Source of the DNA: Ulota crispa
Taxonomy: Eukaryota > Streptophyta > Bryopsida > Orthotrichales > Orthotrichaceae
Assembly (NCBI GenBank): GCA_963920765.1
Contig: OY987244.1
Location: forward strand, 6,884,501-6,948,500
Reading direction: 5' to 3'
Length of the DNA stretch: 64,000 bases
The notes under the pieces were generated by a model, which did no database searches, had not been told where the DNA came from, and saw only the letters and a list, made by a program, of their open reading frames with translations. Both the position numbers and the translations under genes were made by a program. Shown one piece after another: positions 1,331 through 60,627 of this stretch (positions are counted from its first letter, which is position 1; each line of letters opens with the position of its first letter).

Positions 1331-2026
1331 TTAACCCCTAAGTGCCCAAGGCCTTTCTGAGTTTCTTGGAGATTGCATGAAATTGAACAATCAACCAACT
1401 TTTTCATAAATCTCATCAAGTTTTTTTTTTTGTAATTGTACAGTGGGGTTGAAGACAATTACTTCTTCAACCCCACTATATTGTACATATTTAAACAAAA
1501 CATGTTAGAGGTTATATGGAAAAAGAAAACACAACAATATCACTTATAGTTTGAAAAATTATAATGTTTGAACATGAGGGTGTTAAAATTGTAAAAGTGA
1601 CTTAAATATGCTAATCTTCATTTCACATGTCAAATCTAGAAAGTTGGTCACAAAAAAAAATTGAGGTTTAAGGTCATTGTATCTCTAACTTTAATCAATT
1701 TATGGCTTCCAAAATCTATTCCTATATTATTTTTAAATGGATTTCTAAAATATAATTTTCTCCAAGCTCTAGTGTATTTGAGGCTCATTTTCAAGATCTT
1801 TTAACACTAGAAAACTCAAGATTGCAGTGGACACCCTTGTACAAAATCTTGAGTAGAAAAATCATCAATATACGTTTTCAAAATCAGACTTTTGATGTTG
1901 AAAATAGACTTGAAAACGAACTTGTATTGAATAATAAATACTAGAAATAATGATTTGATAAGGTTTAATACATCTTCAAAGTTTTGTAAACACCCAAATC
2001 AAGTTGTTTGGGCATTTAGGGGTTAA
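1331..2026. mobile_element. TTAA-bounded piggyBac-like MITE, family A copy 1
   Basis: The element begins TTAACCCCTAAGTGCCCAAG and ends GGGCATTTAGGGGTTAA, so it has terminal inverted repeats inside a duplicated TTAA. A second copy lies in opposite orientation at 7050-7700. TTAA targets and CCC-starting ends are the signature of the piggyBac superfamily. There is no transposase frame, so it is non-autonomous. It carries a 38-bp hairpin insert at 1441-1478. Confidence 0.75.
1441..1478. mobile_element. 38-bp hairpin insert flanked by TA
   Basis: CAGTGGGGTTGAAG is followed ten bases later by its complement CTTCAACCCCACT, with TA on both sides. The homologous place in the inverted family A copy at 7050-7700 lacks it, so it is an insertion rather than part of family A. 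The CAGTGG start recalls Tc1/mariner-type ends, as in the element at 44533-44854. Confidence 0.6.
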
Positions 2027-2089
2027 AAATACATAGAGTAAGTTCTCAACATTTACAATTCACAACCATTTGATATTTTTAATCAAAAA

Positions 2090-2117
2090 TTTGTTGGTTA
2101 ATGGTGTCTTGCATTAT
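2090..2117. repeat. Fragment of the V-family TA element
   Basis: The words ATGGTGTCTTGCATTATA resemble the right end of the TA-flanked element at 17052-17486 (ATGGTGTCTTGCACCGTA). The matching left end was not found, so this is probably a truncated remnant. Confidence 0.35.
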
Positions 2118-2484
2118 AGCATGCCTTCTAAGGTGTGTTGCCCAACCAATGAAATAAGAAAAAAAAACGTGGAATTTTTTTTTTCTTACTTGGAACCCAA
2201 AAATCCGAACACTAAGAAACTTTTTGGGCTAATTTTCACCAAAATCTTATCTCTTTTTGATACTAGCTACCCTAACCAATGAAAAATAATGAAAATTGTT
2301 TAGAAAATTGGATAGAATTGCCAAATTCCTCTAAAAAGAACTTTGCATAAACCAAATATGGACAATATCTATATGTATAAAATAATCCCTCCAACTTAGC
2401 CACCAACTTAGGGTCTGGTGAAGCAGCTCATTTTAAAGAGAGAGTGCTGTGGTTAAACTTCTAATGACCCATTGTACATTGTTA

Positions 2485-3608
2485 TTAACCCCTAAAGTAA
2501 AAAGCTCTGTTTTTGGCATCATAGCAATTTTGGGCAACTCACTACAAATGGGGTTTTTTTTTTTTGAAATTCTCACACATGATGTGTCCAAGGAGTAGCT
2601 TTGAGGTCCAATAGTTTTCATAACTTTTAACTACATGGTTGAGAAGTTATTGCATGATATGTAGTTTTTTCTATTTGTTGGGCAGCCTAGGCAGCTCAAA
2701 AAACTTCTTCAACCCCTAAACATCGAGGAGGACAAAAAACGTCCTCCGGCTTTGAAAAAAGATTATATGATTTAGAAAAAAGTTGTTTTTCATCTAATTT
2801 TTTTTCAGAAGTGACCATAAACACATGGTTCATCATAGGAGACAAAAATTAACATCTTGAGATGCATTCATTTTTTTTTGCAACCTAAATTGTGATAAGA
2901 TTTAGAAACGTGGTGTTAGCTTCTAAGCTGCCCTTCTTGCAATTTTCATGAGGGCACCATGCAGTGTTAGCTTTTCCAACTTTTTGAAGGAATACTATTG
3001 GTCCCATTTGCAAAACATTGTAGAATGCTACAAGCAAGGCAAGCCACAATGATCCATCTGTCTTTTAAGGGTTAAAACTACATTTTATTTTTATTTTTAT
3101 TTTTATTTTTTTTTTAAATTAGTTCTTTAGACTTATATATACAAGAAGCTTTTGGATCATTCAATTTTGATAAAAAAGATAAAAGTTATGAGAAGTTTTA
3201 GTTTGCGGGTAGGTATTGTTTTGAGAGACTCCATACCTACCTACAAACTAAAACTTCTCATAACTTTTATCTCAATTAATCAAAATTAAAAGATTCAAGG
3301 CTTCCCATGTATATATAAATCTAAAGAACCAATTTCAAAAAACATTGAAATTAAAATATATTAAAAAAAGTCTTTTGAGCTACCTAAGTTGCCCAACAAA
3401 CAAAGAGAACTACATATCATGCAATAACTTATGAACCATGTAGTCAAAATTTATGAAAACTATTGGAACTTAAAGCTACTCCTTGGAAACATCATGTGTG
3501 AGAATTTCAACAAAAAAAAAAAAAAAAAAAAAAAATCAGTTGTAGTAGTTAAGTTACCCAAAATTGCCATGTTGCCAAAAAAATGTTGTTTAGGCCTTTA
3601 GGGGTTAA
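2485..3608. mobile_element. TTAA-bounded fold-back element, family D copy 1
   Basis: Starts TTAACCCCTAAAG and ends CCTTTAGGGGTTAA. About 220 bases of the left arm (2485-2708) are repeated in reverse at 3370-3608, and the centre (3111-3345) is itself a near-perfect hairpin around ATAAAAGTTATGAGAAG. Without the nested element at 2709-3075 the unit is a palindrome of about 757 bases. A second copy lies at 12245-14441. It has no coding capacity. Confidence 0.75.
2709..3075. mobile_element. piggyBac-like MITE, family B copy 1, nested in D
   Basis: Begins TCAACCCCTAAACATCGAGG and ends TTAAGGGTTAA. It interrupts the left arm of the family D palindrome. It is related along its length to 23533-23889 (shared GAGGACAAAAAACGTCCT near the start, AAACACATGGTT in the middle). 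The left TTAA has decayed to TCAA. Confidence 0.65.
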
Positions 3609-4210
3609 CCACCACATGAGTCATGAAATTGCTCATTTTGATTGGTTGAGAGAGAGTGTCATGGTGCAACTTCATGTGACATGCTTGCCCTTTTAGCAGA
3701 GGACCAACAAGAGAGAGAAGCTACACACATAAAGTGGTTTACATTGAGATTTTACTTTGAATCAAGTTGATGTCAATCATTCATGGTTCAAATTTTTAAA
3801 TTGCCCACATTTTGTAACAAGATTGCTACATCAAAACTTGCTGGTTGCAAGGATATTCCTATTATCTCAATTGATACAATGGATACCCAGAATTGTTTAC
3901 TAATGATTGTGTGGATGAGCATTCACTCATGAATGGTCCTATCCGTTTTCTTTTGGCCCTTACTTGCATGCATTCTAAGGTTTATGTCGCTCAACCAATA
4001 AAAAGTAGAAACAAAATCCTTACTTTTAGTTATTTTTCTTCACGAAAGCCCCAAAGATACTCTACTACTATTGACCTATTGTAGCATAAATGGAATGGCA
4101 CCCCACAGCCCCCAGCTATTAGGGGATGGTGTTATAAGGGGAGGGCGACATGCAGACGATGCCATTGGCTGCAAGAGGGGAGCAATTTCGACCGTTGGGC
4201 TATAAAAAAA
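3609..4210. other. Intergenic, no feature seen
   Basis: AT-rich DNA with short open frames only. No homology recognised and no clear terminal repeats. Confidence 0.55.
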
Positions 4211-4320
4211 GGAAAAAACTCCTGGATAGCCCTGAAATTTGCAATATCTACATAGATATACCTGCTTTTTCAGAAATCACACAAAGTACTCTTGGATCAA
4301 AATTTTCAGATTTTTGTTTT
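4211..4320. repeat. Truncated copy of Mutator-like MITE family T
   Basis: GGAAAAAACTCCTGGATAGC followed by CCTGAAATTTGCAATAT matches the left end of the complete element at 41888-42177. The opposite terminal repeat is missing. Confidence 0.5.
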
Positions 4321-4495
4321 GTTGTGCATGTCATTTCTCTTCATCCTTTGTGCACACATCGTTTCTTTTTTGTTTCATTGCATTCCCTTCGTCAGCATTG
4401 GTCATGAGGGAAGTATAAGCACAACAAAAAAATGCCTATTTTTTTTGGCCCAATAGCATTTGTGTAATTTTTCAAAAAGTAGGGAATTCTATGTA

Positions 4496-4819
4496 AGGTA
4501 GGAGGCTCATGAATGGACCATCTAAGGGTTGAAACTGAATTTTGGGGAGGTGAAACTTCTTAAACTATTTTTCAGTAATTTTCCTTGAAAGATAAGAAGA
4601 ATTGACATCTAACCCAAGTTGTTTCACATTTTTTGGAGTTTTATGAAATTAGTTATAAAATTTTGAAAAGAAAGGCCATAGGACTCTATAATGGTTCACC
4701 TTCTCAAATGTACACTACTTGTACATTTTTGAAACCTATGAAAAATAGCATGTACAAATGAGATACATTTAAAAAGGTGGACCAATTTTAAGCTTGAGCA
4801 GAATATGAACCTCCTACCT
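4496..4819. mobile_element. TA-flanked MITE, family P copy 1
   Basis: Terminal inverted repeats AGGTAGGAGGCTC and GAACCTCCTACCT lie inside TA dinucleotides. A second, very similar copy occurs at 43651-43979 in the same orientation, sharing CTGAATTTTGGGGAGGTGAA and an internal CATGTACAAA block. TA target duplication points to a Tc1/mariner (Stowaway-like) non-autonomous element. Confidence 0.75.
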
Positions 4820-4849
4820 TAAAGACTGCAAACTTCAGGGTATCCATAA

Positions 4850-5220
4850 AATATTCCCTCTATATATATGACGGCAATAATACCGGATGAAAATACGTAA
4901 ATATAGACATGAATACGTACGAGAAGGTATATACATGGAGGCTTGCGGCTCAAGAGAGTATAGTATCTTCCTGGAGAATGGAGTCCCCTCCGAGGACCGT
5001 ATTCTATTCTCTGAATAGAAGGAAGGGTGAGTTTTTTAATTCCGACGAGGGGGGTTTCAAGGAAGGCTCCGATGAGGCTTCCGCCCCCATTCCCGGAGCT
5101 TTCGGAATTGCCTTGCTGCCCGAAGGGGCTTTTCCTAGCTGCCCAATTGGGCTTTCCTTGCCATCCAAGCAACTGCTTTTGTCTTTATCGGGTTCTAAGT
5201 TTACCTATCCATCATTAATT
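4850..5220. other. GC-rich island of foreign composition
   Basis: Between AT-rich flanks lies about 350 bases of mixed, GC-richer DNA (for example CCCGAAGGGGCTTTTCC). It is open in overlapping frames on both strands, but I recognise no protein. Plant mitochondrial DNA often looks like this, so a nuclear insertion of organelle DNA is one explanation; a captured gene fragment is another. I cannot confirm either. Confidence 0.35.
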
Positions 5221-5278
5221 CATTACCTTTTTTTTAATTTGAAATTTATTTAAGGGTTTAGCAAAGGTCAATTTATAG

Positions 5279-5995
5279 CAGGCCTCTCTAATTTGTGCAT
5301 TGTCACAAATTAACAAATTAAGCTAATTTGTGCACGTTATGAAAGTTAATTTGTGCATTGTCACAAATTAACAAATTAAGCTTTGTTATGTGTATATTTG
5401 ATATCAAATTAATTGTAACAAAGTATGGAACTGTTTGCACTATAACACCCCCTCAAGTAAGAGGTCAATGAATGATTTATGATGCTCATCCTTCAAAAGT
5501 TAAGAACAGAGAAGTTGGATTCAATTGTGGCTATGTTAGGAAACATGGAGGTTAAGCCGCCAAAAAAGTTGTATAGTGACTCAAAACAACCTTCAACAAT
5601 TTTTCAAGCTTCTTGAAACGAAGTTGCAATGTTGTTGCAACCATCCAATGATACAATCAAAGCCAGTTCACTCGAGTAGGCAACCTTGAGGGCACAAAAA
5701 TCTTGTTCAATGTCAGCAATGGTATGCTCGTCCCATGACTAGTGCAACTGTGCTCAAAAATTCTGGATAATAGAATTCAAATCTCTAGGTCGGAGACAAA
5801 CTAGATGGTGAAGCAAGACTAGAGAGAGGTCTTTGTTAGCTTCATTATTTGCGTCACGCTTGGCTTTTATGCTCACATGCTAATAAGGTCTTTTTTAGTA
5901 AAGGAAAAGTGGGCTTAATTTGTGCATACTCCTCCTGGAAGTTAATTTGTTAATTTGTGCATCTATTTATAGAATGCACAAATTAGAGAGGCCTA
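5279..5995. mobile_element. hAT-type MITE, family G copy 1
   Basis: Ends CAGGCCTCTCTAATTTGTGC and GCACAAATTAGAGAGGCCTA form terminal inverted repeats. The flanking octamers ATTTATAG (5271-5278) and GTTTATAG (5996-6003) differ at one base, as expected of an aged 8-bp hAT duplication. Internal words such as CAAATTAACAAATTAA recur in the copy at 50427-50856, which lies in inverse orientation. No transposase. Confidence 0.78.
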
Positions 5996-6152
5996 GTTTA
6001 TAGTTGACGTGCTGACCAAGAATTTTTATATTTTTCAAATGGGCCCACTATTGGCTCTATACTGCAAGGGTGGAGGCTTTTGCAGGCTGTGATTTGATGC
6101 CAGGGGTAAACTGACCCAATCATTGCCGGCTGAGGTTGTATGGCATCACCCT

Positions 6153-6614
6153 TTAACCCCTAAAGGACTAAGCGTGCCGCTGCGACCAATACAATACGGG
6201 GTATTTTTCTTGTATTTGGAATGGATTCACACCTTTAATATATTTGAGATTAACAAAAAAGTTGGAGAATAGGTCAAAGCGGTTCTAGTGAGCTACTTGA
6301 GATCCCAAATTAACCCCTGAACGTCTCAAATGCCCTTTGTGGCCGTATATATGGCCGTATGTTCAAACGCATTTGAGCTACTCTAAGGGCTTTCCAAATT
6401 TTTTTATGCACCCCCCATCATACAACCCTTCAATATGTATGGTTGTAACACTTAATTTCCAACTGATTCAAACTTCTGAATGCTGGTTGCGACCGTATTT
6501 GGTACCGTAACTTCAAAGCCCAAGGGCCCTTCAAGGATTAAAACTTCTTACTCGTAGCAAATACCAATTATATGGCAGCGTATATAGTATGCCCTATGGT
6601 CCTTTAAGGGTTAA
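6153..6614. mobile_element. piggyBac-like MITE, family E copy 1 (host of F)
   Basis: Begins TTAACCCCTAAAGGACT and ends GGTCCTTTAAGGGTTAA. Copies at 15921-16176 and 40787-41020 share the ends and the internal block GATCCCAAATT. Relative to those copies this one has a second element inserted at an internal TTAA (6310-6541). Confidence 0.78.
6310..6541. mobile_element. piggyBac-like MITE F nested in E, TTAA duplicated
   Basis: Element TTAACCCCTGAACGTC ... CCCTTCAAGGATTAA. The host reads CCCAAA-TTAA-insert-TTAA-AACTT, while the copy at 15921-16176 reads CCCAAATTAAAACTT uninterrupted. One TTAA has become two, which shows the target site directly. Confidence 0.8.
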
Positions 6615-7049: not shown

Positions 7050-7700
7050 TTAACCCTTAAATGCCCAAGCAACTTGATTTGGGTCTTTACAAAACTTGAA
7101 GATGAATAAAATCTTATCAAATCATTATTTTCTGGTATTTTATCTTTAATATAAGCTTTTTTTGAAGTCTATTTTCAACATCAAAAATTGGATTTTGAAA
7201 ATGAAAGTTGATGATTTTTCTACTCAAGATTTTGTACAAGGGTGTCCGCTGCAATCTTGAGTTTTCTAGTGCTGGAAGATCTTGAAAATGAGCCTCAACT
7301 ATACTAGAGCTTGGAGGAAATTCTTCATTAGGAATTCATTCAAATTTTTTATATATAGGTAAATTTTGAAAGCCGTAAATTGATTAAAGTTAGACATGTA
7401 ATGACCTTAAATCTCGTATTTTTTTGGAGACCAACTTTTTAAATTTGACATGTGAAATGAGGATTGGAAGACTTCAAGTCACTTTTGCAATTTTAACACC
7501 CTCATGTTCAAACGTTATAATCTTTCAAACTATAAGTGATGTTGTTGAGTTTTCTTTTTCCATGTAATCTTTAACACGTTTAGTCTAAATTTGTATGGTT
7601 ACATTATAAAAAATTGATTAGATTTATGAAAAGGGTTTAGGGTTGTTCAATTTCATGGAAATTTCAAAAAGCTCACAAAGTCCTTGGGCATTTAGGGATC
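7050..7700. mobile_element. piggyBac-like MITE, family A copy 2 (inverted)
   Basis: Reverse-complement relative of 1331-2026: starts TTAACCCTTAAATGCCCAAG, ends TTGGGCATTTAGGGATC. The right TTAA has mutated. It lacks the 38-bp hairpin seen in copy 1, so it serves as the empty site for that insertion. Confidence 0.72.
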
Positions 7701-7785
7701 ACTTTGTTATTGTACTTAATATACCAATTAATGAAAACAGATTAACCAAATTTGTATTAATTTATGATTTATCTTCATTATTAGG

Positions 7786-8193
7786 AAATTGATATATATG
7801 CCATTGCTTTTTACTATTCTACTACACCTACTATATGTGGCCAATATTTATGATATTAAAATAGAAGTAGACCACAAGAATAACATTAATAATTTGAAAA
7901 TATGACTTGACATAGAAGTTGGAACTTGAATTTTGTTTTTTTAGCTATGGACCCTGCTCGTAATATCACTTAAAACATCTAAATTATGCTGTTTAGTTTA
8001 TTTATTTTTAAATTGATATTATGAGCAAGATAAAGACCTAAAAAATAAAACTATAGTTGCAACTTCTATGTGAAGATATATTTTCATATTGATGATATTT
8101 TTCCTGTGGTCCTCACCTACTTTGATATTGTAAATGTTGGTCATATATAGTAGGTGTGGTAGAATAGTAAAAAAGGTGAGATATATATCAATT
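7786..8193. mobile_element. Fold-back MITE, about 400 bp
   Basis: Left arm AATTGATATATATG, TTTTTACTATTCTAC, ACACCTACTATAT is mirrored on the right as ATATAGTAGGTGTG, GTAGAATAGTAAAAA, ATATATATCAATT. The arms run almost to the centre near 7990, so a transcript would fold into a long hairpin. Superfamily unclear. Confidence 0.65.
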
Positions 8194-10948: not shown

Positions 10949-10960
10949 TATGTAGGGCAA

Positions 10961-12125: not shown

Positions 12126-12428
12126 CACCTTTGCATCAACAAATGTTATCCAAGAAAGTTTGAACAAGTATTTTACTCAAAAAGTGAGCTAGTGCTACAA
12201 AGGATGGAGTCTCTGATAGTGAAGTTGCTTGTTTTGATATCTTGTCAACCCCTAAAGCCCTAAACAACATTTTTTTGACAACATAGCAATTTTGGGTAGC
12301 TCAATACAAATGAGGTTTCCTTTTATTTTCTCTTGAGATTTTCACACATGATGTATCTAAGGAGTTGCTTTAAAGTCCAACAAATTTCATGACTTTTGAT
12401 TTCATGGTTCAAAAGTTATTGCATGATA

Positions 12429-13020
12429 CTCCCTTTGTCTAAAAGAAAACCCCTTTTATTTATTTATTTTTTGTCTAAAAAAAAACTTGTGTTTGTATAT
12501 TGACTTGATTTTTGTCACAAAAAAACCTACGCCTATCTCTAAAATAAGCATTAACTTTGCTTGGCATGTCTAGTGATAGTTTTTGGGCATTTTATGCTCA
12601 TTAATTGCTAATGCTAGCATTGCAAACTTGATTTGGTGATTTTTCTTTGCGAATTGTGTCTATCATTAACCCATAATCATCAGTAGTATCAACATTAAGA
12701 TTTGGTTTTTTGATAGATGGGACAACTTGGGCAACTAGGCTAACTTGTTCTTTACTTACAATTGCATTGACACACTTCATATCAATCATTTTTCTAATTA
12801 TTAGCAACAATAACAAAACACTTGAAATTTCAAAACTTTGGCACTAAATTCCTTTTCTTTTTAGAAAACATTAATCCTTGAAAAAATCAAAATCGTGTTT
12901 GGAATAGTTTAAACCTAAATATCCAAGAACTTCCAATTACAATTTGTCGGTAATATTTCTTGATCTCTCACAAATTCTCAAACATGGGATTTTTTTGGGA
13001 TTTTTTTGAGACAGAGGGAA
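12429..13020. mobile_element. Stowaway-like MITE, family K copy 2, nested
   Basis: Starts CTCCCTTTGTCTAAAA and ends TTTTGAGACAGAGGGAA. TA precedes it and TC follows, a decayed TA. The end sequence is the one familiar from Tc1/mariner-derived plant MITEs. The uninterrupted host word is visible in family D copy 1 (GATATGTAGTTTT). Copy 1 of family K is at 22490-22846. Confidence 0.68.
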
Positions 13021-13040
13021 TCTGTAGTTTTATTTGTTCA

Positions 13041-13902
13041 TTAACCCCTAAAGGCCCAAGGAGCCCACTTTGGGCTTTATGAGATCTTGGGTAGGCTCTA
13101 CATGGGAAGCTTTATTTCATGTCATTCTAATAAGTAATGCAAAAGTTATAAGGTTTTTTCAATTTCAATGTCAAACTGAGCACCAAAAAAAAATAAAAAA
13201 ATAAAAAAATAAAAGTATATATATATATATAAAGAACTTTATAGATTAATACCTACTCAAAAAAAATTTAACCACTCAATTCCAAATAATGAGGTAAGAG
13301 TTAAAAGGAGTTTTCTTTTGCGGGCAATGAAGGTAGGAAGAGAGTAGAAAAAACATATAAGGTTATCTTTTACTCTCAATTTTGAAAAATTTCAAATTTC
13401 AAATTTCAAATGAAAGTTGCTAATTGTCTATTAGAGCATACTTACCATTGGGATTAACAATTTTCAAATTCTTCCAAAACTTATTAGCATATTAGTTATA
13501 TCTTTCATTCATCAATACCTTTCACTTTACAATTTTTGTGAAAATGAATCCAAAGTTTTTTTGGTTAATTATTTTTATATTTGCTTTCAACCCATTCTCC
13601 AACATATTGCAAAAATTGCACAAGAATTACAACATACGTGTTTTTCTCTAAAAAGTTTGAAAAACAAAACTTTACCTTCTGGAAGGACTAGAAAAGCCTA
13701 CAGTTTAGGCACATTGATCTTGCAATTGGTGGGGATATTCATTCAGAAATTTTGGGACAATGTACTTGTGCAAGTCAACCAAAAGATCCAATGGTTGGAT
13801 TTGTTAAAAAATAATTTTCAATGAAGATTTTGACCCTGGTCTGGGGACTAGTATTTTGAAGCAGTTTTGGGCCTCTAAACACAAAAGAATTTTAGGGATT
13901 AA
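13041..13902. mobile_element. piggyBac-like element J nested in D copy 2
   Basis: Begins TTAACCCCTAAAGGCCCAAG and ends AATTTTAGGGATTAA, with TTAA at both ends. It splits the family D arm, which resumes as CCAACTTGGGCAACTC. At 862 bp it is one of the larger TTAA units here, but no transposase frame is recognisable. Confidence 0.65.
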
Positions 13903-14441
13903 CCAACTTGGGCAACTCAAAAAGACTCTTTAAAACTTAAATAAAAAAAAAAAACTGAAATTGGTTCTTTAGATTTATCACACATAGGTTGCTCTGAATC
14001 ATTCAATTTCAATTAATAAGATGAAAGTTATGAGGAGTTTTAGTTTGCACCTAGGTACATAATTTCTCAAAACCATACCTACTTGCAAACTAAAACTCCT
14101 CATAACTTTCATCTCATTAATCAAAACTAAAAAATTCAAAGCTTCCTACCTAGATATAAATCTAAAGAACAACTTATTTTTTAATTGTTAAGCAAATGTA
14201 ATATTCAAAGAAGTTTTTGGAGTTGCCCAGATTGCTTGGCAAATAAAGAAAACTACACATCATGCAATAACTTTTGAACCGTGAAGTCAAAAGTTATGAA
14301 AGTTGTTGGACCTTAAAGACATGTCTTGGACACATCTTATGTAAAAATTCAAGGAATAAAAAATGAAAAGCCCGTTTGTAGTGAGTTGCCCAAAATTACT
14401 ATGTTGCCAAAAAAAATATTGTTTAAAACTTTAGGGGTTAA

Positions 14442-15920: not shown

Positions 15921-16176
15921 TTAACCCCTAAAGAACCGAGCAACCATTGTACCAAGCAACCATTGTACATACTATGTACAGTGTTGTATAAGTGATATTT
16001 AGAATGCATCCACACCTTTATTACATTTGATATCAACACAAAAGTCAAGATATAAACAAGTGCAATTCTAGCGAGCTAGTCAAGATCCCAAATTAAAACT
16101 TTTTGTTGGTAGGAAATGCCAATTATATGATAGCGTACATCTACGTACAACGGTCACTCGGTCCTTTAGGGGTTAA
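15921..16176. mobile_element. piggyBac-like MITE, family E copy 2 (empty site)
   Basis: TTAACCCCTAAAGAACCGAG ... GGTCCTTTAGGGGTTAA, 256 bp with TTAA at both ends. The internal CCCAAATTAAAACTT is intact and gives the empty-site sequence for the F insertion at 6310-6541. It lies 270 bp downstream of the AFG1 stop codon. Confidence 0.8.
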
Positions 16177-16445: not shown

Positions 16446-19400
16446 TTAGCAAGTGCTGTTTAAATTCGTGAAGCCTAGGTTTTTTAACTGGAGTTTGATC
16501 TCAGCACTTTTAGATCTAGAAAAATAAGAACCACTTTGCATCTCCAAAAGTCGAGACACAGCACGAGGAGCTGCTTTCCTTGTGAAGCTTGCCCCAGTGA
16601 GCCCCGCCAGTGAAGCGCCCTGCCTCCCCGTGGCGCTCCATTCCATGTTGCCGATCATCAGTGTGGACCTGCCAGAACTGCCTCCCTCACCAATAATTCG
16701 AATTCCTTGGTGTTCCAATGCGCTTACAGTGCTTTCTTTCACAACTTTCTCCGTTTGGGAAACATAAGAGAAGAGAGAATCTGGGGGAACAGCAGCTGAG
16801 CAGATGAGTACCGTGTTGGCTTCGTAGAGTATGTCTATAAGATTGATGAACCGCCGGGCCTCATTCTCACAGCTTGGGTCCGCAAGGCACGGAATCCTGC
16901 GTATCATTGAAACGCTTATGTTTGTCAGATGACATCAGTATCACTTCAAAACATGAAGCTGACATTACACTCTTGAAAGAAGCTGCAACACCTCAGGCCC
17001 AACTGCTAATTCAACATAAGAATATGGGTTTCCAATTCTTTGATTATGGTACAGTGCAAAACACCATAAACCAACAAATATTTTGGCCACAAAATGCCAA
17101 ATAGTGGTCAACTTTGGGTGCTATCAATGTATTTTTGACAAATGAGAATTCAAATCTGTTTTTGTAGTTTTTTTCCTAAGATCTCCTTGCTTATAGTTAC
17201 AAAGAGTTTTAACTTATTGAGGGGTGTTATGAATAGCTTATATGGTTGTTAGGTCTTTGTTGTTCTATGTTGTAATACCTTTCAATAAGTTGAAACTCCT
17301 TGTAATTATAAACCCCTCACTAAGTTTGAAATTCTTTGTAACTATAAGCAGGGAGATCTTAGGAAAAAAAACTACAAAAACGGATTTGAATTCTCATTTG
17401 TCAAAAATACGTTGATAGCACCCAAAGTCGCCCACTATTTGGCATTTTGTGGCCAAATGTTTATTGGTTTATGGTGTCTTGCACCGTAGATTTTCTTACG
17501 ACTTGAGTTTGCGTATTAATGCGTTTCTACTGAACCAACTACTCCAGACATGTGTAGTTACTACCAACCACAATGCCAAGGACAGGCGATCAACACTGTT
17601 TTACAATGCTATGAATATCGTTTGCGATGGATAGTTGATTGGTTCACTTCGTTATACGTCCTCATGTTGAACTAAATTCTTACTTGGGCCAGTGTCTCAC
17701 CTGTCTAGAAGTAAGACCCTGAAGTTTTCAGTGATTGCAATGTAATCTGCAGCTCCAAACGCTGACTTGCACAAGTAAGAGAACGAAGCCCGTGCAACAT
17801 CTTTGGCAGCCAATATCTGAAATAGCCTGCCCATGGGTCCTAGTACAGGCTGAAAAGTCCCTTGTACTCCTGATGTCACACATCATTATATTCACTGAGT
17901 AGCTTCATTGCCACTTGCACTGAACTCTCAAATGTGCGCATGCATGAGAACAATACAGAGCCTTCGGACAAAACTACTGAGAAATGAAATGGAAAGAATA
18001 ACACGATCACTTTTTAAATGTCAGTATATATTGCGTCCAACAGGGAAACACCAAGTAGATGACCGGAGGTCGCCAGACTACATCTTCTGCAAAGACCGTG
18101 ACTTCTTCCAAATAGCTCGTTAAATACTCAACATACACGACCAACTGAGATGATTTACTTCATATTTAATTAGTTCAAACTTTTACCTGTCAGCTTCAAA
18201 AAAATCTGATCCATGATGCCATCAACAGTATCATCTAGAGGGCACTTGTAAAGGTTCTCTGACCAAGCATGGCGACGCCGATAGTCATTTCCATCCGCTG
18301 AATTTAAACTTTTTACATTGCAGTACTCCTTTAGTTGGCGGATGAAAGGCAAGAACTGTCAAGCATATGAAAGTGTAAGTTCGACATAATCTTCACATTA
18401 AGCAATTCCAGAAATGCAGCTGGTCATCCATAGATTTCGAAAGACTAACGTAAAATAAATTAAAAAACAGTTCAACAAGCATGTGGCGTTTGTGAAGCAT
18501 ATCCTAGAGGGCAAAACCAAAATGATAAGTTCACTGACCAGGTAGCAATTCAAACCGTCCTGATAAAGTTGATCCGGAACCGTGTTAGAAGTGGCGACTA
18601 CTACGATGCCCATGGGCCACAGGACTTCAAACAAGCGCCTCAGAATAAGAGCATCCGCTATGTCTGTCACTGTAGTTCCAGTCAGATAGTACACATTTCA
18701 AATAAATACTTATTTAATTTGGCATATAATTGTCAAATCAGAGCATTTGTCGGGGGTAACGTAATGATTCGTTTCAAGACAACGTTTTAAAAAAACAAAA
18801 ACATAATGATTATATCCCATTCAGCAGCTAGAAGCACGAGTAGAAAATCTGCTCTTTAGAGGTATTTAAGAAAACCTATCCACATTTCAATTGACAGAGC
18901 TTATGTGTAAAGAATTGTCTTAAACAGCATTACGGCTGGCAGGGTATAACACAAGTCCTTCTAGGGTATCTCTTGAGAGGGTTGGGATTCAATTACTGAA
19001 AGTTGGTCAATGTAAGCAAACAACTTACCCTCAACTTCGTCTAAACATAGTAGACATGATTGCTCAAAAAGTTGCAAGGCTACCACTTGGATTGGGTTCG
19101 AGACCCCCACATGCTTGTGAAGCCGTTTGTGCACGTCTAGCCTGGCATACACGAATTCCCACCATCAGGTACACTCAGAATACAGCACATTACGGAACAA
19201 GAAAAGACGTATGTTAAAGGAATCCAAACTGCAAGGAGAGGCCAACATGAATGAATGGAAGTGCACACGGCGTTTTCTGCGCACAGGTACTTGGTTGTAA
19301 AACAGATCCATCAGAAATGTCTTGCCGGTTCCCACGGTTCCGTACATGTACATGCCCTTCGTCGCGGGAGGTCGGTACCGCCAGGCCATTGGCTGCCACC

Positions 19401-22468: not shown

Positions 22469-22489
22469 TACTAGTAGCTATGTATGATA

Positions 22490-23532: not shown

Positions 23533-23889
23533 TTAACCCTTAAATGTCGAGGACAAAAAAACGTCCTTTGGCTCCAGAAAAATATCTTGTATGTCAGATT
23601 TTGTTTTGTTTTTCATTTTATTTCTTTTTAGAGGTGATCTTAAACACATGGTTTATCATGGGAGGCAAAAATTTACCTCGTTAGATGCACTCATATTTTT
23701 AAATAACTCAAATTGTGAGAAAATTTAGAGACACGGGTCTAGGTCCCAAACTGTCCTTGTTGCAAATTTCATGAGGTCAGCATGTACTTTTGACTATCAG
23801 AACTTCCTAAACACTTGATATAACAATGAGAACAACAAATGTACAGTAGATCATTGTAGCCAGGCTGGTCGCAATGACCAGCCCGATGT
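23533..23889. mobile_element. piggyBac-like MITE, family B copy 2
   Basis: Begins TTAACCCTTAAATGTCGAGG and shares blocks in order with 2709-3075 (AAAAAACGTCCT, AAACACATGGTTTATCAT, TTGCAAATTTCATGAGG). Its right terminal repeat is not visible. The next TTAA element starts exactly there, so the end was probably lost or disrupted by that insertion. Confidence 0.6.
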
Positions 23890-24253
23890 TTAACCCCTGA
23901 GTGCCCAGAGTTGTTTTAGGGTTTAGGAAAAAATGGGGGATTTAATGGCCACCAGAGCTTGGAAAACTACATCCAGAAAAAGTGACCGTAGGATTTGAAA
24001 AAGGACTACCTTCTCTGTTGATGGGGACCAGCCCTTTTTTTTTTGGCACTAGAGTGCCAGTTTCCACCACTAGACTTCCGTCCCTCCAATTTTGCTCCAA
24101 TGTGTAGGGAACAAGTAGCACTTTGGTGCCAAAAAAAAAAGGCTCATTGGAGACTAGCCACAACTGCTTTCACCCTACAAATCAAGAGAAAAAGTGAGAT
24201 CTAATCGTGATCCCCAACAATAGGATCCCGTCATTGGGGCGCTTAAGGGTTAA
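23890..24253. mobile_element. piggyBac-like MITE C
   Basis: TTAACCCCTGAGTGCCCAGA at the left and GGGGCGCTTAAGGGTTAA at the right, 364 bp with TTAA at both ends. It abuts family B copy 2. No coding region. Confidence 0.65.
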
Positions 24254-25440: not shown

Positions 25441-26070
25441 TGTTTTAAATCCTAAAGATTTCGGGGAAGATTTGAGCAAGAGTGGAGCTCAAGAGGTGAA
25501 GGTGTGAGACGAGGCTCGATTAGGTTTGAAGTGCATCGGTGTTTGTGAATGAGAGATGTACTTGATGTGTTTTATTACGAAGATCGTGGTGGCGACGTGA
25601 TCCCGAAAGATTTGGCAGAAAAGGTGTTCGGAGTGGAGGCCAGGAGGTGAAAGTGTGAGACGAGACTTTATTAGGGTTTGGAGTGCGTGTGTTCGGAGCT
25701 ATGTTTGTGAATGGGAGAGATGTGCTTGATGTGTTTGTTATGATGATCGTGTTGGCAACGTGATCCCGAAAGATTTGGTAGAAAAAGTGTTAGTAGTGGA
25801 GATCAGGAGGTGAAAGTGTGAGACGAGACTTTTTATTAGGGTTTGGAGTGCGTGAGTTTGGAGCTGTGTTTGTGAATAGGAGAGATGTGCCTGATGTGTT
25901 TATTATGACGATCGTGTTGGCGACGTGAGCCCGAGAGATTTGGCAGAAAAGGTGTTCGGAGTGGAGGTCAGGAGGTGAAAGTGTGAGACGAGACTTTTGA
26001 TTAGGGTTTGGAGAGCGTGTGATCGGAGGCTCAGAGCTGTGTTTGTGAATGGGAGAGATGTGCATGCGGA
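25441..26070 (+). repeat. 150-165 bp tandem repeat forming the exportin-7 leader
   Basis: Units begin AGGTGAAAGTGTGAGACGAG at 25494, 25645, 25808 and 25973, after a decayed half unit from about 25441. Each later unit carries TTAGGGTTTG, the telobox common in plant promoters and leaders; the first unit has a degenerate form. Each also carries GTGAATGGGAGAGATGTG-like sequence with out-of-frame ATGs. The last unit runs to within 15 bases of the exportin-7 start codon, so the array is part of the leader or the promoter. Confidence 0.85.
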
Positions 26071-30860: not shown

Positions 30861-31800
30861 GTTGTGCTATTCAATTTTTTTTGCATAATATAGTATACAA
30901 TGGGCATTTTTTATCTTGCATAGTGTACCTCACTAATAGCTTTGGCACACAAGTGCCAAATAATTAATCAAAATGCAAAATTGAAGTAAGGCACCTAAAA
31001 AATTATATAATTTTTTTTGTTATTTCCAGGAAAAAAATGTAATATTTAGGCATTCATCCAAGTCAAACATCATAATTATGGTAATTAGCTATTGTCGTTG
31101 GTTAATATGGTTATAATTTAAGATGACCTTCATTTTAGTATTCATTAATAAGATGGCAATCATGGCATTCATCAAGAAAATGACAACTGATATCTTTTTC
31201 ATGTTGCCTTAATGCTTTCTAGATTTGGACAACAATATTTAGCTTGTATTCACGTATGAGAGTTTTTTTGTATGTGAGATTGTTTTTTTGTAAAAGGAAA
31301 ATGATCAAGCAATGAATACATATTTACAATAGATGACAAAAATGATTTGAAAGTAGGTGTGTTGCTTGATTTTGTAGCTTTGACCACATAATTTATGTTA
31401 TAATTTTTTGTATGTCAACATAACTACAAAATTTATTTGATTTTGGCTCATATTTTAGTACCTATGTGAAGACATTTTATTTTATTTTAGCACTTTTAAA
31501 AATCATTTTACTAAATTTCAGCAATAAGTGGGTATGTTTACAAAAAACACTAGGTAGATATTTTAAAACTTATTTTGTGCCAAAGCTGCTAGGAAGATAT
31601 AGTAGTTAATTTTTATTTCTTATGCAATTCCAATTAATTATATCAGATTTCAATTTTAAAAAATGAAATGACTTTTGCTAAATTATTTCATTTAACATTC
31701 ATAGGTTTATATGATAATTGATTGATAAAAATTGGTGATGAACTTTCTAATTTGATTGCATAAATATGTAGGACACATTTGTACACCTTTCATGTTACAA
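30861..31800. repeat. Degenerate copy of fold-back family L
   Basis: TTTATATGATAATTGATTG, ATTGGTGATGA and GATTGCATAAATATGTAG near 31.71-31.77 kb match in order the arms at 61.05 kb and 61.5 kb. Words near 30.88-30.93 kb (ATAGTATACAATGGGC) resemble its outer end. Boundaries are uncertain. Confidence 0.45.
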
Positions 31801-31959
31801 AACACTCCATTATGTAGAAGTATGATCTAAGAAAAATATGATCTATGAAGAGTTTAGTGTGAGGTGCTATATGACCAAATTTTGTAAAATATATATCTCT
31901 ATATTTTTAATCTTGTGTTTAAAAATAAAACCACAGAGTCAGAGTACATTACAACTGGT

Positions 31960-40630: not shown

Positions 40631-41268
40631 AGGTAGGAGTACCCCTCACCGTTAGTGTCTCCATCCTCAATATCTACTTGTGTTAGTAATGTTAGTGACT
40701 GATAATTTTTAAAAAATTGATTATAGGTGACAAAGTGATGGTTTTGGGTGACTTGCATGATAGTATTGAGTGCTCCATCTCACTATTTAATCCTTAAAAG
40801 ATGAGAGAGCATTGTATATACACTGCCATATAATGGGTATTTGCTACCAACAAAAGGTTGTAATTTGGGATCTCAAATAGCTCACTATGACCGCATGGAT
40901 CTATTCTCCAACTTCTTTGTTGATCTCAAATGTAATAAAGGTGTGGATGCACTCCAAATACAAGAAAAATACATTGTATTGTACTAGTCGCAAAGGGCTG
41001 CCTTGTCCTTTAGGGATTAAGAACTCCTCAAGTTAGTGTTTTGAGCGTATGAGCACACTAAAGACATCTCCTACACACAACTATACATTTTCATTGATTT
41101 AGGACTTTAAAAAATCTTTGTGAACAAATGCTTGCAATGGGAACTTTCAAATTGATGCCAATATTTTTGATTTCCTCTTCCTAACTTAACACTACTTTTT
41201 TCAAAGTTCATCAACTGATTTTCCTACCCAAAACTCTTAGTTTCACGCTTATGGGTGGTACTACCTTA
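40631..41268. mobile_element. TA-flanked MITE, family W copy 1 (host of E3)
   Basis: Ends AGGTAGGAGTACCCC and GGGTGGTACTACCT, with TA outside. It matches 42391-42747 in order (CAAAGTGATGGTT, AAAAATCTTTGTGAACAAATG, CTTATGGGTG). A TTAA element of family E sits inside it at 40787-41020. The terminal hexamer AGGTAG is shared with family P. Confidence 0.75.
40787..41020. mobile_element. piggyBac-like MITE, family E copy 3, nested in W
   Basis: TTAATCCTTAAAAGATGAG ... GTCCTTTAGGGATTAA, 234 bp, in inverse orientation to copies 1 and 2. The host reads CACTAT-TTAA-insert-TTAA-GAAC, while the related copy at 42391-42747 reads CACTATTTAAGAAC. This is a second direct example of TTAA duplication. Confidence 0.8.
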
Positions 41269-49967: not shown

Positions 49968-50221
49968 GGCCGCCTAGCTAGAGCTCTGGAGGTGCTGAGA
50001 CTAGGAGCTTTGCGGGTACGGCGATCTGAGTAAAGAAGCACGGCGATCGAGTACAACAACGCCTGGATTTTAGGGAAGCATGAGTGCGGCGTGGAGAGGA
50101 GCAAGCAGAGGCGAGGGTTTTGTTGCAATGCCAGTCTTCGGGGGAAATCGGCGATGGAAATGTGCGCGACGGACGCTGGGAGGCACAGCCGCGAAGAGCG
50201 CCTGGGAGCATCAAGGAAAAA
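49968..50221 (-). promoter_or_regulatory. DLST upstream region
   Basis: GC-richer than its surroundings and free of transposon ends, this 254-bp stretch between the start codon and the tandem array is the likely leader and core promoter. No TATA box can be assigned. Confidence 0.4.
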
Positions 50222-51062
50222 GCATCGGGAAAGAAAAGTACCAAAGATAGAGAAAAGTGTCGGGAAAGAAATTTACCGAAGATTTAAAGAGAAGTGTCGG
50301 GAAAGAAAAGTATCGAAGATCTAAAGAGAAGTGTCGCGAAAGAAGAGTACCAAAGATCTAAAGAGAAGTGTCGGGAAAGAAAAGTACCGAGAAGTGTTGA
50401 GAAAGAAAAGTACCAAAGGTCTAAAGCAGGCCTTTTTAATTTAATTTTTATAAAAATAAATGCACAAATTAACAAATTAATCCACAATGTGCATAAATTA
50501 AGTTCATTGGTTCCTTATAAAAAAAAGTTTGCACTTGGTATATGCCACATGGTAATTACTGTGCAACTTTTGTAGTGGCAAGGCCACCATGTTCCTTAGC
50601 ATGGCCAGAGTTGAATCCGACTTCTCTACTCTTAAACTCTCAAAAGATGAGCATTATAAATTGTTAACTAACCTCTCACTTGAAAGGGGTCGAAATGCAA
50701 GCAATTTCATGCTTTGCCACATTTAATATGATATCAAGTATGCAAATATAAAAAACAAGTTTGTTAATTTATGACAATACACAAATTAACTTTCATGATG
50801 TGCATAAATTAAGCTAATTTGTTAATATATGAAAAAACGTAAATTAAAGAGACCTGGTCTAAAGAGAAGTATCGGGAAAGAAAAGTACCAAAGATTAAAG
50901 AAAAGTGTTAGGAAAGAAAAGTACCAAAGAGAAAGAGAAGTGTCGGGAAAGAAAAGTACCAAAGAGAAAGAGAAGTGTTGGGAAGAAAAGTACCAAAGAT
51001 AAAGAAAAATGTCAGGAAAGAAAAGTACCGGAAAAGAAAGTACAAAGATAAAGAGAAGTGTC
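50222..51062. repeat. 37-bp purine-rich tandem array, split by a hAT MITE
   Basis: Degenerate units of AGTGTCGGGAAAGAAAAGTA followed by CCAAAGATCTAAAGAGA run from 50222 to 50426 and resume at 50857-51062, with the hAT-type element between. One strand is almost free of pyrimidine runs. A related array lies at 63290-63510. Confidence 0.8.
50427..50856. mobile_element. hAT-type MITE, family G copy 2, perfect 8-bp TSD
   Basis: CAGGCCTTTTTAATTTA ... TAAATTAAAGAGACCTG, flanked on both sides by GTCTAAAG (50419-50426, 50857-50864). Internal words (AGAGTTGAATCCGACTTCTC, GATGAGCATTATAAATT) are the complement of those in copy 1 at 5279-5995. The perfect duplication within a tandem array shows that it is the younger copy. 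Confidence 0.85.
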
Positions 51063-55480: not shown

Positions 55481-55484
55481 ATAG

Positions 55485-55530
55485 GATTTAGGGTGAAGGG
55501 ATTTAGGGTTTAGGGTTTAATGGGATTTAA
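55485..55530. repeat. Short interstitial plant-type telomere-like repeat
   Basis: Four degenerate TTTAGGG-type words, two of them exactly adjacent, between GGATTTAGGGTGAAGG and TTTAATGGG. Too short to be an old chromosome end, but it is the plant telomere word. Confidence 0.55.
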
Positions 55531-56405: not shown

Positions 56406-58298
56406 CTACATTGTAACTCATTTTTAGGTTGTGCTTTCATTGTTTATATAAAATTGCAAGTGTGTGCAAATGATGTTGACTGGGTATAGAAATCAATGTG
56501 TGTAATAGTTTGTGAGTGCTAAATAAGCAATGGATACACTTTGGGATTTCAAAAGCCTTGAACTATATATCTAATTTTAAATGAAGTTTGCAATAAACTG
56601 TGAGTGAATAGCAATTGTAAATCAATTGGATTGTAATTGCATAGCAACTGCTCTTTGACTGCATTGCAACTAAATTGTGATTGTATCGTGACTGTAATGA
56701 GACTTCATAGGAAATGCATAAGGACTTTATTGTGACTGTAATGTAACCTCAATTTGATTGTGTGATTAGACTACAGTGTGACAATGTTATGTCTAAATGG
56801 TGTCTGCATTTGTGACTAGTTTGTGACTAAATTTTGTATGTTGTTATGAATGGTTGGTGATTGTATTCTGCTTGAGGAGTTATTGCATTGTACCCCCAAA
56901 CCTCATGTGACTGTATGATGACTGTGTTGTCACTTCAATTTTGCTTCAACTCCATTCTATAGTAACCGAGCTGAGACTATATTATAATAATTAAACCACC
57001 AACATTGGAACTAAAAATGACAACTATGTGGTGACTAATATAGAACAACCCTCTACCATTAGAGGTAAATCAAACTATTTCTACACAACATGCAATTATC
57101 CTAAACTCTAAATGCCCAAAACCAAACAGTAATCAACTTAAGAACAACTAAGATACGACTAAGTGGAATGTGTAAACGACTATGTTAGTTTAGCCTAAAC
57201 CCAAACAGTGTAATTCAACTAGAAAACAATTAACCGGACACTACAAAATGAATGTACGTGCTTGTTGGAGCATCGTAGCACCTTAATTCAAAACTAACAA
57301 ACAATTAATACATGACTACTGAAAACTATGTGGCCACTTATCTACTATTAATACATGACTAAACGAGAATTATGTGGTCACTTATCCGTTACTGAATGTG
57401 GATTGACGCTATGATAGCAAATGTGGATTTCATAAAGCAATTACTGAGATCAAAACACGTTGCACATGATAGTTTGATTTTGTTAGTGGAAACGTAATGG
57501 CACCCTTGGGAACTGGGAAATTTTAAATGCTTGCATGAAAAAAAGGGCAGTTGGGTTTAAAGAGAGAACATTTCTTTCTCCTTGATAAAGACAAAGTTCA
57601 TAAGACGTAAATGATGAGATACTGTAATGTCCTAAATGATTGAATGACAAAAACTACTAAACAATTGAAGAATGACTAAATTGCGACCAAATGAGATCAA
57701 TCATGATATAGTCATTTAAAAATAAACGACTCATTTTGTAATTATTTTTAGCAGTCACATGGGACGTTGATTTTACTTGTAAAACTACCTTAAACCACAA
57801 AATAATTCTTTTTTAGAATTTCTTTGTTTGCATCATAGCTTTGTATGTGGAATAGTGAACCCATCATATTTTTCCTATTAGTTAGGCAAGGAGTTATTTT
57901 GCGTCATCTTTGATACTATTGTGGTCATTTAAGGGTGGTTGAGGTTGTCTTTAGCCCTCTTCCAATATTCAAACTATGTTGTGACTATTTGTCGACGTCA
58001 CAATCACATGGTATAAGCCGGTCCACTACTGGATTCTTACCAAACAACCCATTGGTATGTTGTGATTATTTGTCAATAAATTAGAGTTACCTCCTAGATT
58101 AGCGCCACCTACATCTACATCTAAGGAAGAGTAGAAGCCATCACCGATTAAGCTTTGGGATATGTAGAGTCCCAAGACAAGGTATGATCACTCATATTTC
58201 CTATTTAACTTTCCCCACGTAATTTCAACCTTTGGCTCATTAGGTAACTGCTTCGCTTTGTTTATTGTTATTTTGTAGAATTGTTAAAAAGATCCATT
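56406..58298. other. Intergenic, low-complexity, no gene recognised
   Basis: Many GTGACTGTA, TTGCAACTA and ACTAATACATGACT words recur without a fixed period. No gene or element boundary identified. Confidence 0.45.
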
Positions 58299-58535
58299 AA
58301 CACCATATTTGTTATAATGAGAGTTTTCCAGTGAAATGAGAGGTAATTTACCCAAAATTCCAAAAAAAAAGTCAATTCAACAAAAGGTTTTAGGTAAATT
58401 CAGCTTGATTTGAGCTGAAAACTCTCATTTTAATGGAAATTGATGATTTTGGATGGAAATTTGTGATTTTGGTCAAACCTAACATGTTTAAATTCCGAGA
58501 GGTCCTCATTCTCTCATTATAACAAATATGGTGTT
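58299..58535. mobile_element. MITE U with 4-bp duplication
   Basis: AACACCATATTTGTTATAAT and ATTATAACAAATATGGTGTT are perfect inverted repeats, extending to GAGAG / CTCTC. CATT flanks both ends. A second internal pair lies near GAAAACTCTCATT. The superfamily is unclear. Confidence 0.7.
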
Positions 58536-58750
58536 CATTGCTTGGAAGGCATCTTTAGTTGGAAACCTCCAAACCAAACCACCATATTGTTATTCTCTTA
58601 TTTTAAATTTATTCTCTAACTTACCCCATAGTTAAAACCCCTAAACCCAATTGTGCTTGCATTTACCTCTAAATGGGGAGGTTTGAGCTCTCACAACCCC
58701 CTATTTGGCTATTTGTATGTCCCCCTACTTCTGAGCCCCCTACCCTCCAA

Positions 58751-58946
58751 ATTTTACTTTATTTCATTTACAACTTTAGTTAACTTGTACTCTACTCTAT
58801 TTTACTTTATTCATTTATGACTTTAGTTAATTTGTAGTCTACTCTATTTTACTTTATTCCATTTGTAACTTAATTTGTACTTTATTGAATTTTACTTTAT
58901 TCCATTTATAACTTTAGTTAAACTTGCACTCTATTCTATTTTTTAA
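58751..58946. repeat. 48-bp tandem repeat, four copies
   Basis: Units begin ATTTTACTTTATTCCATTTA and continue AACTTTAGTTAACTTGTACTC, with small length differences. Confidence 0.75.
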
Positions 58947-59688
58947 GTGGAACTAAAGATGAACTTTGCATAATCATCCTCTTCACCTACAAAATTGTCA
59001 ACTACTACCACTGCACAATATTCAATTATTTAGAGGAGAAGGTTCTAAATATAACTAAGATTTTTACTTCAGCAAAGGTTGAGGTTGAAAGCTAAAGATA
59101 AAAGTTAAAAATAACTAAAGAAGTTATATTTTATTAAAGGACCAATAGTTAATTAGTTATTGAGGATATAAGATGGGGTTTGGAGGATGAGGAAGTGAAT
59201 TCATTTGGGAATTAATCGTTTGTGTTTCCAAAGCGCCGCCCAACCTTCTAGAGCGTTGCCCTCACTCCTTGACGTAGTTTTATTTTGGAGTTTTTTGAGC
59301 TTCAAGTGATTTGCATGCCATGGCATTTGAACGAAAAACCTTGGGTGCTTAGATTGAATGTGCAACAAAAGTTGGCATTTATTATTATATATATAGCACC
59401 ATCAATGGGGGGTTGCAAGTAGCTAATTGCTGGCAAGAGCATTGGCAGGAGGTAGCAAAGCAGAGACTGGAAATAGCAAAAGCAACGCATGAATTGATGG
59501 TTGCCTTATGCGAAGCAAAGGCTAGAGGTAGCAATAGCCAGGCATGAATTGATGATTGCCTTGCAAGCCTTAATACCGCATGTGGCTCAAGTGTTCACTC
59601 AAGAAACTTAGGTCTATTTTTGCAATGCTAGATTAGGATTTGGCCTTGAATTGATGCATTGGTGAACTATTTGCTTAGTGAGAACTAC
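58947..59688. other. Intergenic with a short direct repeat
   Basis: A block with GCATGAATTGATGGTTGCCTT occurs twice between about 59455 and 59570. No gene recognised. Confidence 0.45.
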
Positions 59689-60627
59689 TTAACCCTTAAA
59701 GGCCTAGATGTCCCTTGGGGGACAAATGGATTTTGGGCATGTACCTATAGCAAATATAGCTTTTGTGATTTTTTAATACTTTTATTGAAGGTGGGGAATT
59801 CCAAGACCTATGCAAGCATCTAATTTTTTTGTCATTTTGACATTTGACAAAGAAGCAATGTAAGAATTTCAGCTGCCCAGGGGAGGGAGGGCAATCCGGG
59901 CAACCCAAAAACTTCTTAGAAATTTGTATTTTCTAAAAATAGAAATCTGAAATTGGCTCTCTAGATTTTTTCATATGTGGGAAGCTTTGAATCATTCAAC
60001 TTCAATCAATGAGATGACAGTTATGAGATGCTTTAGTTTGTAGGCAGTTATGGATTCTCTACTCTAAAATAAACTTTGAAGTCCTTTATTTCTTCACAAT
60101 TTTCAATGTTTTGGAAAAAAAGTAAACCTAAGGAAGAAAATTGTTTATTACAATATTATAATTGTTGGATTTGCATTTTTCATTTTAATAATTAAATTCT
60201 TAACAATTTAGTGATTTGACTCATTCTCTACTTCTTTTTACTTACTATTTTTCCCCATGTGTTGTATAGTTCTAGTTGATTTGAAAATTCTCCCACACAT
60301 ACCTACCTTGGTCTTCTACATGGAAAAAATAAAGTACAACTTTGTGTAGAGTAATTTTTTTCATGTAAGAGTGGTCAAAGGCTTCTAAAATTTACTAGCA
60401 ATAAGGAAAAGTAACATTTTTCCTTTACCTCAAATGTAAATATCTCCCTCCTCTCCATTTAGAATGACCTAATTTTTTCCCACAAGTACCTCTTTTATTC
60501 TAAGGCAAGATCCTACGGTTGAATTTGCAAAAAAAACTTTATTTTCTACTTTTCTACTCATTCCCCCAAAGTGGCAGTTATTAGTGACTTTCATTGGAAT
60601 AAAGGACTTGGGACTTTAGGGATTAAG
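59689..60627. mobile_element. TTAA-bounded element H, related to families D and J
   Basis: Begins TTAACCCTTAAAGGCCTAGA and ends GGGACTTTAGGGATTAA, 939 bp. Its interior near 59.94-60.06 kb holds one arm of the family D core (GAAATTGGCTCTCTAGATT, ATGACAGTTATGAGATGC). It may be a chimera or a relative of the fold-back elements. No transposase. Confidence 0.6.

Follow-up and report, generated by a model that had tools for sequence, protein, structure and literature searches.

Miniature piggyBac-type transposons with TTAA-bounded ends in the genome of the moss Ulota crispa

A stretch of the genome of the moss Ulota crispa (OY987244.1:6,884,501-6,948,500, forward strand; 64,000 nt, hereafter the window) contains units that share ends of the TTAACCC type, raising the question of which transposon superfamily they belong to. 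The original prediction, made from the letters of the window, was that they form a swarm of TTAA-bounded, piggyBac-like miniature elements (MITEs). We conclude that the units are almost certainly miniature non-coding piggyBac transposons, elements of a familiar kind in a host where they were not expected.

Units of the window and their abundance in the genome

All 12 of the units originally listed are present, and all 12 carry TTAACCC-type ends, with one or a few bases decayed in some of them. The last unit ends at 60626 rather than 60627, the one placed at 7050-7700 reaches 7702, and a partial unit starting at 23533 had been missed. The units, to which no strand is assigned, are as follows:

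1331..2026, 696-bp MITE of family A, bounded by TTAA on either side; family shared with 7050-7702
2485..3608, fold-back MITE B; 757 bp once the nested insert is subtracted; the two arms are about 80% alike
2709..3075, MITE nested inside B, with TCAACCC on the left and TTAACCC on the right
6153..6614, MITE C, 234 bp when the nested insert is left out, related to 40787-41020 and 15921-16176
6310..6541, MITE nested in C; single TTAA in six unoccupied paralogues
7050..7702, MITE of family A in the opposite orientation; its right-hand TTAA has decayed to TCAC (+ strand)
12245..14441, B-type composite MITE; a Stowaway-like insert (about 12429-13019) and 13041-13902 lie within it
13041..13902, MITE nested in 12245-14441
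15921..16176, MITE F, 256 bp, related to C, with one TTAA where C holds its insert
23533..23784, partial MITE, left end only, related to 2709-3075
23890..24253, MITE G, 364 bp, with ends TTAACCCCTGAGTGCCC and TTAACCCTTAAGCGCCC
40787..41020, MITE H, 234 bp, related to C, with TTAC where C holds its insert
59689..60626, MITE I, 938 bp

The two ends of a unit form an imperfect inverted repeat with the pattern TTAA-CCC(C/T)T(A/G)A(A/G), starting with CC(C/Y) as piggyBac MITE derivatives do. Left ends at 2709 and 12245 have TCAA instead of TTAA, and TTAATCC is found at the left end at 40787 and at the right ends at 6541, 13902, 41020 and 60626. Scored with the motif T[TC]AA[CT]CC[CT]T[AG]A[AG], the window holds 25 degenerate ends (14 left, 11 right), one of which, at 12871, lies outside every definable unit, whereas 200 Markov-1 simulations yielded 0.6 on average and 4 at most. 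Both sides of 12245-14441 are relatives of 2485-3608. The partial unit is 73.5% identical to the nested MITE of B (23535-23784 against 2711-2961), and no right end could be placed for it. Together the units take up about 7.3 kb, or 11.4% of the window, a somewhat high sum, as it takes in 23533-23889 and the Stowaway-like insert. An Rfam search of the window returned no matches.

The same ends recur throughout the genome. The sequence TTAACCCCTAAAG occurs 17,656 times, compared with 16 times for its reversed control. For a degenerate end of 17 positions the count is 28,528, compared with 6 for the control; if every element has two ends, this corresponds to at least about 14,000 elements. Thousands of short non-coding copies are present, some nested in one another. 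The family A unit 1331-2026 has at least 48 matches in the genome (40 of 3879 candidates scored).

piggyBac transposases and the ends of their elements

The window had been described as containing no transposase, and an autonomous partner had been predicted to exist, or to have existed, elsewhere. The prediction is borne out, and the searches agree with the description. No listed locus matching the piggyBac transposase profile (PF13843, DDE_Tnp_1_7) lies inside the window (116 of 528 candidates scored). A tblastn search of the window with five transposase pieces gave just two matches, both at chance level (E = 0.19 and 0.32). Across the genome, the profile search produced 120 matches at 116 loci among the scored candidates, and none in 14 control genomes. 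The genes are mostly broken, stops being present in 110 of the 120 matches. Pfam confirmed the DDE_Tnp_1_7 identity of four loci, and matches in the PDB include piggyBat (9c0f, E = 3.6e-18) and insect piggyBac (6x67, E = 6.6e-16). The transposases of the 12 loci examined closely, out of 116, fall into three clades with about 28 to 37% protein identity between them (L004 and L007 left out). All aligned catalytic aspartates (DDD) are kept in eight of these 12 transposases and positions of the triad are changed in L002, L007, L008 and L069.

The suggested genome-wide search for such transposases flanked by swarm-like ends was likewise productive. In the 5.5-kb L072 family, the transposase lies between CCC...GGACC ends at TTAA. 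The left end of L072 is well delimited, since 36 of 39 other matches start within positions 197-202 and the TTAA is at 201; in the C6 and C7 copies the right end falls inside the predicted stretch, and homology to L072 stops at the last base of L072. In two further transposase elements, L001 and L069, the right end is common to the base with other copies, in two of three long matches for L001 and in all three for L069. A 774-bp element, L076:975-1748, retains only the two termini of the L072 family and is an internally deleted copy of a larger transposase element.

This deletion-derivative link is seen for L076:975-1748, whereas for the units of the window the agreement of ends is partial. Of 17 positions, between 11 and 15 are identical when the placeable ends of transposase elements are compared with the two main MITE ends, and in several cases the first seven bases agree by design, as TTAACCC had served to select the ends. 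Among the loci examined (12 of 116), none carries a transposase element whose end is exactly the commonest one of the MITEs (TTAACCCCTAAAGGACC), the best agreeing at 15 of 17 positions. The piggyBac interpretation of the MITEs is supported by ends of the same form around a DDE_Tnp_1_7 transposase.

TTAA as the duplicated target

Two observations had been named in advance as arguing against piggyBac: TTAA being part of the element, and the ends belonging to another superfamily. Both were looked for, and neither refuted the piggyBac reading. As regards the first, unoccupied paralogues with a single TTAA were found at seven insertion loci, clean at four or five of them and mixed at the rest. In a gapped alignment, the site matching the insert 2709-3075 is a single TTAA in the other arm of B. 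At the site of 6310-6541, the unoccupied paralogues other than the six with a single TTAA have TTAC or TTAT. Empty-site paralogues of L018 and L038 are mixed and mostly not TTAA, and no clean single-TTAA empty site was obtained from 13041-13902, L010 or L034. Ends of family A have an exact TTAA in 52 of 60 cases, with unrelated flanks. TTAA, single in unoccupied paralogues and present on either side of the insert, is thus a duplicated target and not a fixed sequence of the element, with the reservation that, TTAA being palindromic, duplication of TA alone (2 bp) under a strict preference for TTAA would look identical.

This ambiguity bears on the first of the other superfamilies. Stowaway MITEs depend on a mariner-type transposase and target TA, with no need for a flanking T and A. 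The units might accordingly be Tc1/mariner (Stowaway-like) MITEs duplicating TA, with ACCC ends and a TTAA target arising by chance, and the palindrome alone cannot separate the 4-bp from the 2-bp duplication. We consider this very improbable. The flanking T and A are retained, the 16-mer CCCCTAAAGGACCAAG being preceded by TTAA in 3038 of its 3614 copies, and the transposases found inside elements with ends of the swarm form are of the PF13843 type; it is the transposase type that decides between the two duplications. Less probable still is an origin as PIF/Harbinger (Tourist-like) MITEs. Tourist MITEs are common in plants and have symmetric ends flanked by a 3-bp TTA/TAA direct duplication, and TTAA contains both trinucleotides. 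The ends, however, are symmetric only if the target is TTAA or TA, whereas a TTA direct duplication would make the inverted ends asymmetric (left ACCCC, right GGGG), and the transposase between such ends is again PF13843. The chance that the ends derive from plant telomere repeats (CCCTAAA) captured at breaks is negligible: one telomere unit does lie inside CCCCTAAA, but it is single, TTAA-bounded and paired with an inverted partner, and the family interiors are related in unrelated flanks.

Origin of the swarm and relation to known systems

We return to the piggyBac reading. The piggyBac transposase binds the ends of the element, cuts at TTAA and rejoins the element at a new TTAA. By analogy, an enzyme encoded elsewhere would have bound the ends of the short copies in trans, excised each copy from one TTAA and joined it to another. 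Separate transposase clades might even have driven MITEs of separate end dialects (...GGACC and ...TGCCC). A possible fuller history, which we put forward tentatively, is that several old piggyBac lineages colonised the moss genome, that their MITEs are now a common repeat with dialects tracking the clades, and that some lineage may still be active. Should a native active copy exist, its seamless excision from TTAA would make it a useful mutagen for moss genetics; more generally, the genome offers a place to study piggyBac entry and silencing in bryophytes.

Domain with aligned DDD, TTAA duplication and CCC-starting ends are all shared with the known piggyBac superfamily (PF13843; 9c0f, 6x67), from which the present elements differ in their plant host, three clades and mostly short non-coding copies. 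Insect piggyBac-type MITEs are also short, non-coding, TTAA-bounded and driven in trans; they differ in host kingdom, and the likeness is one of descriptions, not of sequences. PiggyBac has been described as absent from plants, and newer reviews mention plant piggyBac loosely. A land plant that has three clades of the transposase, and matching ends in the tens of thousands, speaks against its absence. The plastid psaB, closest to entries of the moss Physcomitrium, likewise points to a moss as the host. Among the matches listed for open-access titles and abstract starts, no paper dealing with piggyBac elements or MITEs native to a moss was found; PMC10619864 matched solely through the word piggybacking and PMC4938662 solely in its references. 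PiggyBac MITEs are named for angiosperms in a 2023 review (PMC10004981) and PiggyBac-labelled fragments are tabulated for the fern Ceratopteris (PMC6890710). These entries have the label and a plant host in common with the Ulota swarm; the transposase and target-site tests made here do not figure in the passages concerned. A parallel in a moss is offered by PpTc1 and PpTc2, Tc1-like elements of Physcomitrella (PMC4054914): there, too, a superfamily previously unknown from plants has been amplified in a moss, although superfamily and target are different and amplification in Ulota has proceeded mostly via MITEs.

Element ends and the TTAA target

All 12 units originally listed from the sequence alone proved to be real, having TTAACCC-type ends, some decayed by one to a few bases, and an additional left end, absent from that list, lies at window position 23533. 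Within the window (G000:C3:6884501-6948500 of the 274.8 Mb, 157-contig assembly), 25 instances of the degenerate end were counted, against a mean of 0.6 and a maximum of 4 in 200 first-order Markov simulations. Genome-wide, TTAACCCCTAAAG is matched exactly 8816 times in forward and 8840 times in reverse orientation versus 8 + 8 for the reversed pattern, and TYAAYCCYTRARNGNCC has 14,303 + 14,225 versus 3 + 3 for the control. Since these stricter patterns catch 7 and 9 ends in the window, compared with 25 for the looser degenerate pattern, the genome-wide number of ends, extrapolated from this one window, is probably larger than the pattern counts. With a strict script pattern, a downstream partner end was found in 20 of 30 loci, which were taken consecutively starting at one end of contig 1 and do not form a random sample, the first partner being 827 to 963 bp distant in 16 of the 20.

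TTAA had been predicted to be a duplicated target rather than part of the element, and unoccupied paralogues with a single TTAA at seven loci bear this out. A scan covering 98 candidate end pairs, a few of which may be disregarded as falsely paired, produced 108 alignments across the junction and at least one such paralogue for window 6310-6541 and for the genomic loci L018, L032, L036, L038, L043 and L057:564-2154, the last being two adjoining elements. Paralogues of L018 and L038 are mixed, mostly not TTAA, and those of L075 and L080 are one base off. A single TTAA was not seen in the alignments across the junctions of window 13041-13902, L010, L034 and L050:1501-2384; the other rows of the scan were self-matches, adjoining elements or false pairs. 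At the site of 6310-6541, nested in the MITE at 6153-6614, a single TTAA is present in the uninterrupted relatives at window 15921-16176 and in L032, L050, L052, L058 and L064, with TTAC in the relative at 40787-41020 and TTAT at two places in L065. The insertion site of 2709-3075 corresponds, in a gapped alignment, to one TTAA in the opposite arm of its host element.

Copies of family A (the MITE family including window 1331-2026 and 7050-7702) at 30 loci have unrelated flanks, and exact TTAA is present in 52 of their 60 ends, which include loci whose BLAST match ended early or shifted at an end. TTAA directly precedes 3038 of 3614 copies of CCCCTAAAGGACCAAG. Window 61903-62061, a paralogue of the site hit by the family A copy of L043, carries no insertion. 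The MITE at L072:6347-7315 abuts the right TTAA of a transposase element, the target being common to both, and end-to-end insertion is also found at L057:1501-1504.

The divergence of 29 family A copies from their majority consensus has a median of 5.7% (3.8 to 10.3%; pairwise, 5.8 to 14.9%). Because only best-scoring copies were measured, the whole family may be older than these suggest. Copies of the MITE family adjoining L072 are 89-94% identical over ~200 bp (best 40 of 1423 candidates).

PiggyBac transposases and their elements

The transposase partner predicted to exist elsewhere in the genome is present: PF13843 (DDE_Tnp_1_7, the piggyBac transposase domain) gave at least 120 matches, grouped into 116 loci (116 of 528 candidates scored), and no match in 14 control genomes. 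Stops interrupt 110 of the 120. Four loci were assigned to DDE_Tnp_1_7 by Pfam, and the L072 protein matches the piggyBat structure 9c0f (E 3.6e-18) and 6x67 (E 6.6e-16), an entry labelled only 'Transposase', which we take to be piggyBac. In a tree with 16 nameless homologues, the 12 examined loci form three clades:

L005, L069 and L072
L001, L002, L006, L007, L070 and L071
L003, L004 and L008

The branch uniting the last two has a support of only 0.47, and protein identity between clades is ~28 to 37% (L004 and L007 left out). Aligned aspartates, presumably the catalytic residues, are all kept in 8 of the 12 and altered in L002, L007, L008 and L069.

L072, positions 695-6350: element with a transposase between TTAA ends, TTAACCCATTAAGGATC and TTGACCCTTTAAGGACC

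When the L072 left flank and end served as a query, with 40 of 174 candidates scored, 39 further matches were obtained, and 36 began at positions 197-202, TTAA being at 201. Three of them, on contigs C5, C6 and C7, have a listed transposase 2.7 to 4.9 kb downstream on the same strand; the left ends on C5 and C6 were read as letters (L074, L075), that on C7 was placed by homology only. Right ends on C6 and C7 lie within the predicted stretch (20/21 and 19/21 positions), and homology to L072 stops at the last base of the L072 element. With both ends located, the copies on C8 (L072), C6 and C7 measure 5656, 5516 and 5472 bp, and each encloses a transposase. A 774 bp element, L076:975-1748, aligns with the family's first 248 bases and with two segments close to the family's other end, reaching to five bases short of the last base; it is an internally deleted derivative.

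For the right end of L001, in the second clade, two of three long matches stop at 501-502, where TTAA ends; they are 93 and 95% identical, and each has a listed transposase upstream of it (C8 and C10). The third (C11, 70%) stops at 484, and six short matches fall in the flank. The L069 right end has three further matches, each ending at 501-502, and two lie close to listed transposases.

The expectation that the transposase is flanked by the MITE ends held in part: the ends are of the same form, but the two main MITE ends (GGACC and TGCCC) are matched at only 11 to 15 of 17 positions, seven of which agree by construction in the several transposase ends that were chosen by TTAACCC. L072-family ends are nearer to GGACC (14-15 versus 12-13 positions), L001 and L006 ends are nearer to TGCCC (13 and 12 versus 11), and the L071 end and L069 left end favour neither. 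A score of 13 for the GGACC end is reached by 22 of 824 window TTAA sites, MITE ends themselves counted. From this agreement it is inferred that different transposase clades may have driven MITEs with different end dialects.

Host genome and other repeats

Listed transposases are spread over contigs C1-C11 and listed family A copies over C1-C10, so contamination is an unlikely source of either. The window contains an exportin-7-like gene. Over 720 positions, the psaB of plastid contig C157 (112.5 kb) has 8 differences, counted on the printed alignment, from 7ksq/6l35/8htu, entries presumably from Physcomitrium; these score 1681 bits and the next entry 1643. A moss is therefore the likeliest host. 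At least 46 psaA/psaB fragment matches lie on C1 to C10, outside the plastid contig, pointing to frequent transfer of plastid DNA to the nucleus.

Other repeats in the window are as follows:

12429-13019: insert within a B-type element (a relative of the fold-back MITE 2485-3608), ends CTCCCTTTGTCT / TCCCTCTGTCTC; resembles what we take to be a Stowaway (Tc1/mariner) MITE
17050-17488: near-palindrome (82% over its length), ends TACAGTGCAAAACACC / TACGGTGCAAGACACC; a different inverted-repeat element type
60858-61737 and 61807-62229: 880 bp inverted-repeat family (83%), ends TGTACACTGGG / TGTACAATGGG; further relative at 31606-31904
7787-8193: palindromic repeat (75%), ends AATTGATATATAT
50220-51030 and 63273-63521: related tandem arrays 12 kb apart, unit ~34-37 bp
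25480-26066: ~165 bp in three tandem copies, continuing into the first exportin-7-like open frame

Relation to described plant elements

According to PMC2528002 (2008), the superfamilies described in plants are five others only. PMC10004981 (2023) includes PiggyBac among angiosperm MITE superfamilies, PMC10794571 (2024) has PiggyBac in a superfamily list, and PMC6890710 reports a fern with 1230 fragments labelled PiggyBac. Given these labels, the kind of element was already known and even named for plants; within the literature searchable, what seems new is that such elements occur in this host and in such numbers, and that their link to a transposase was tested.
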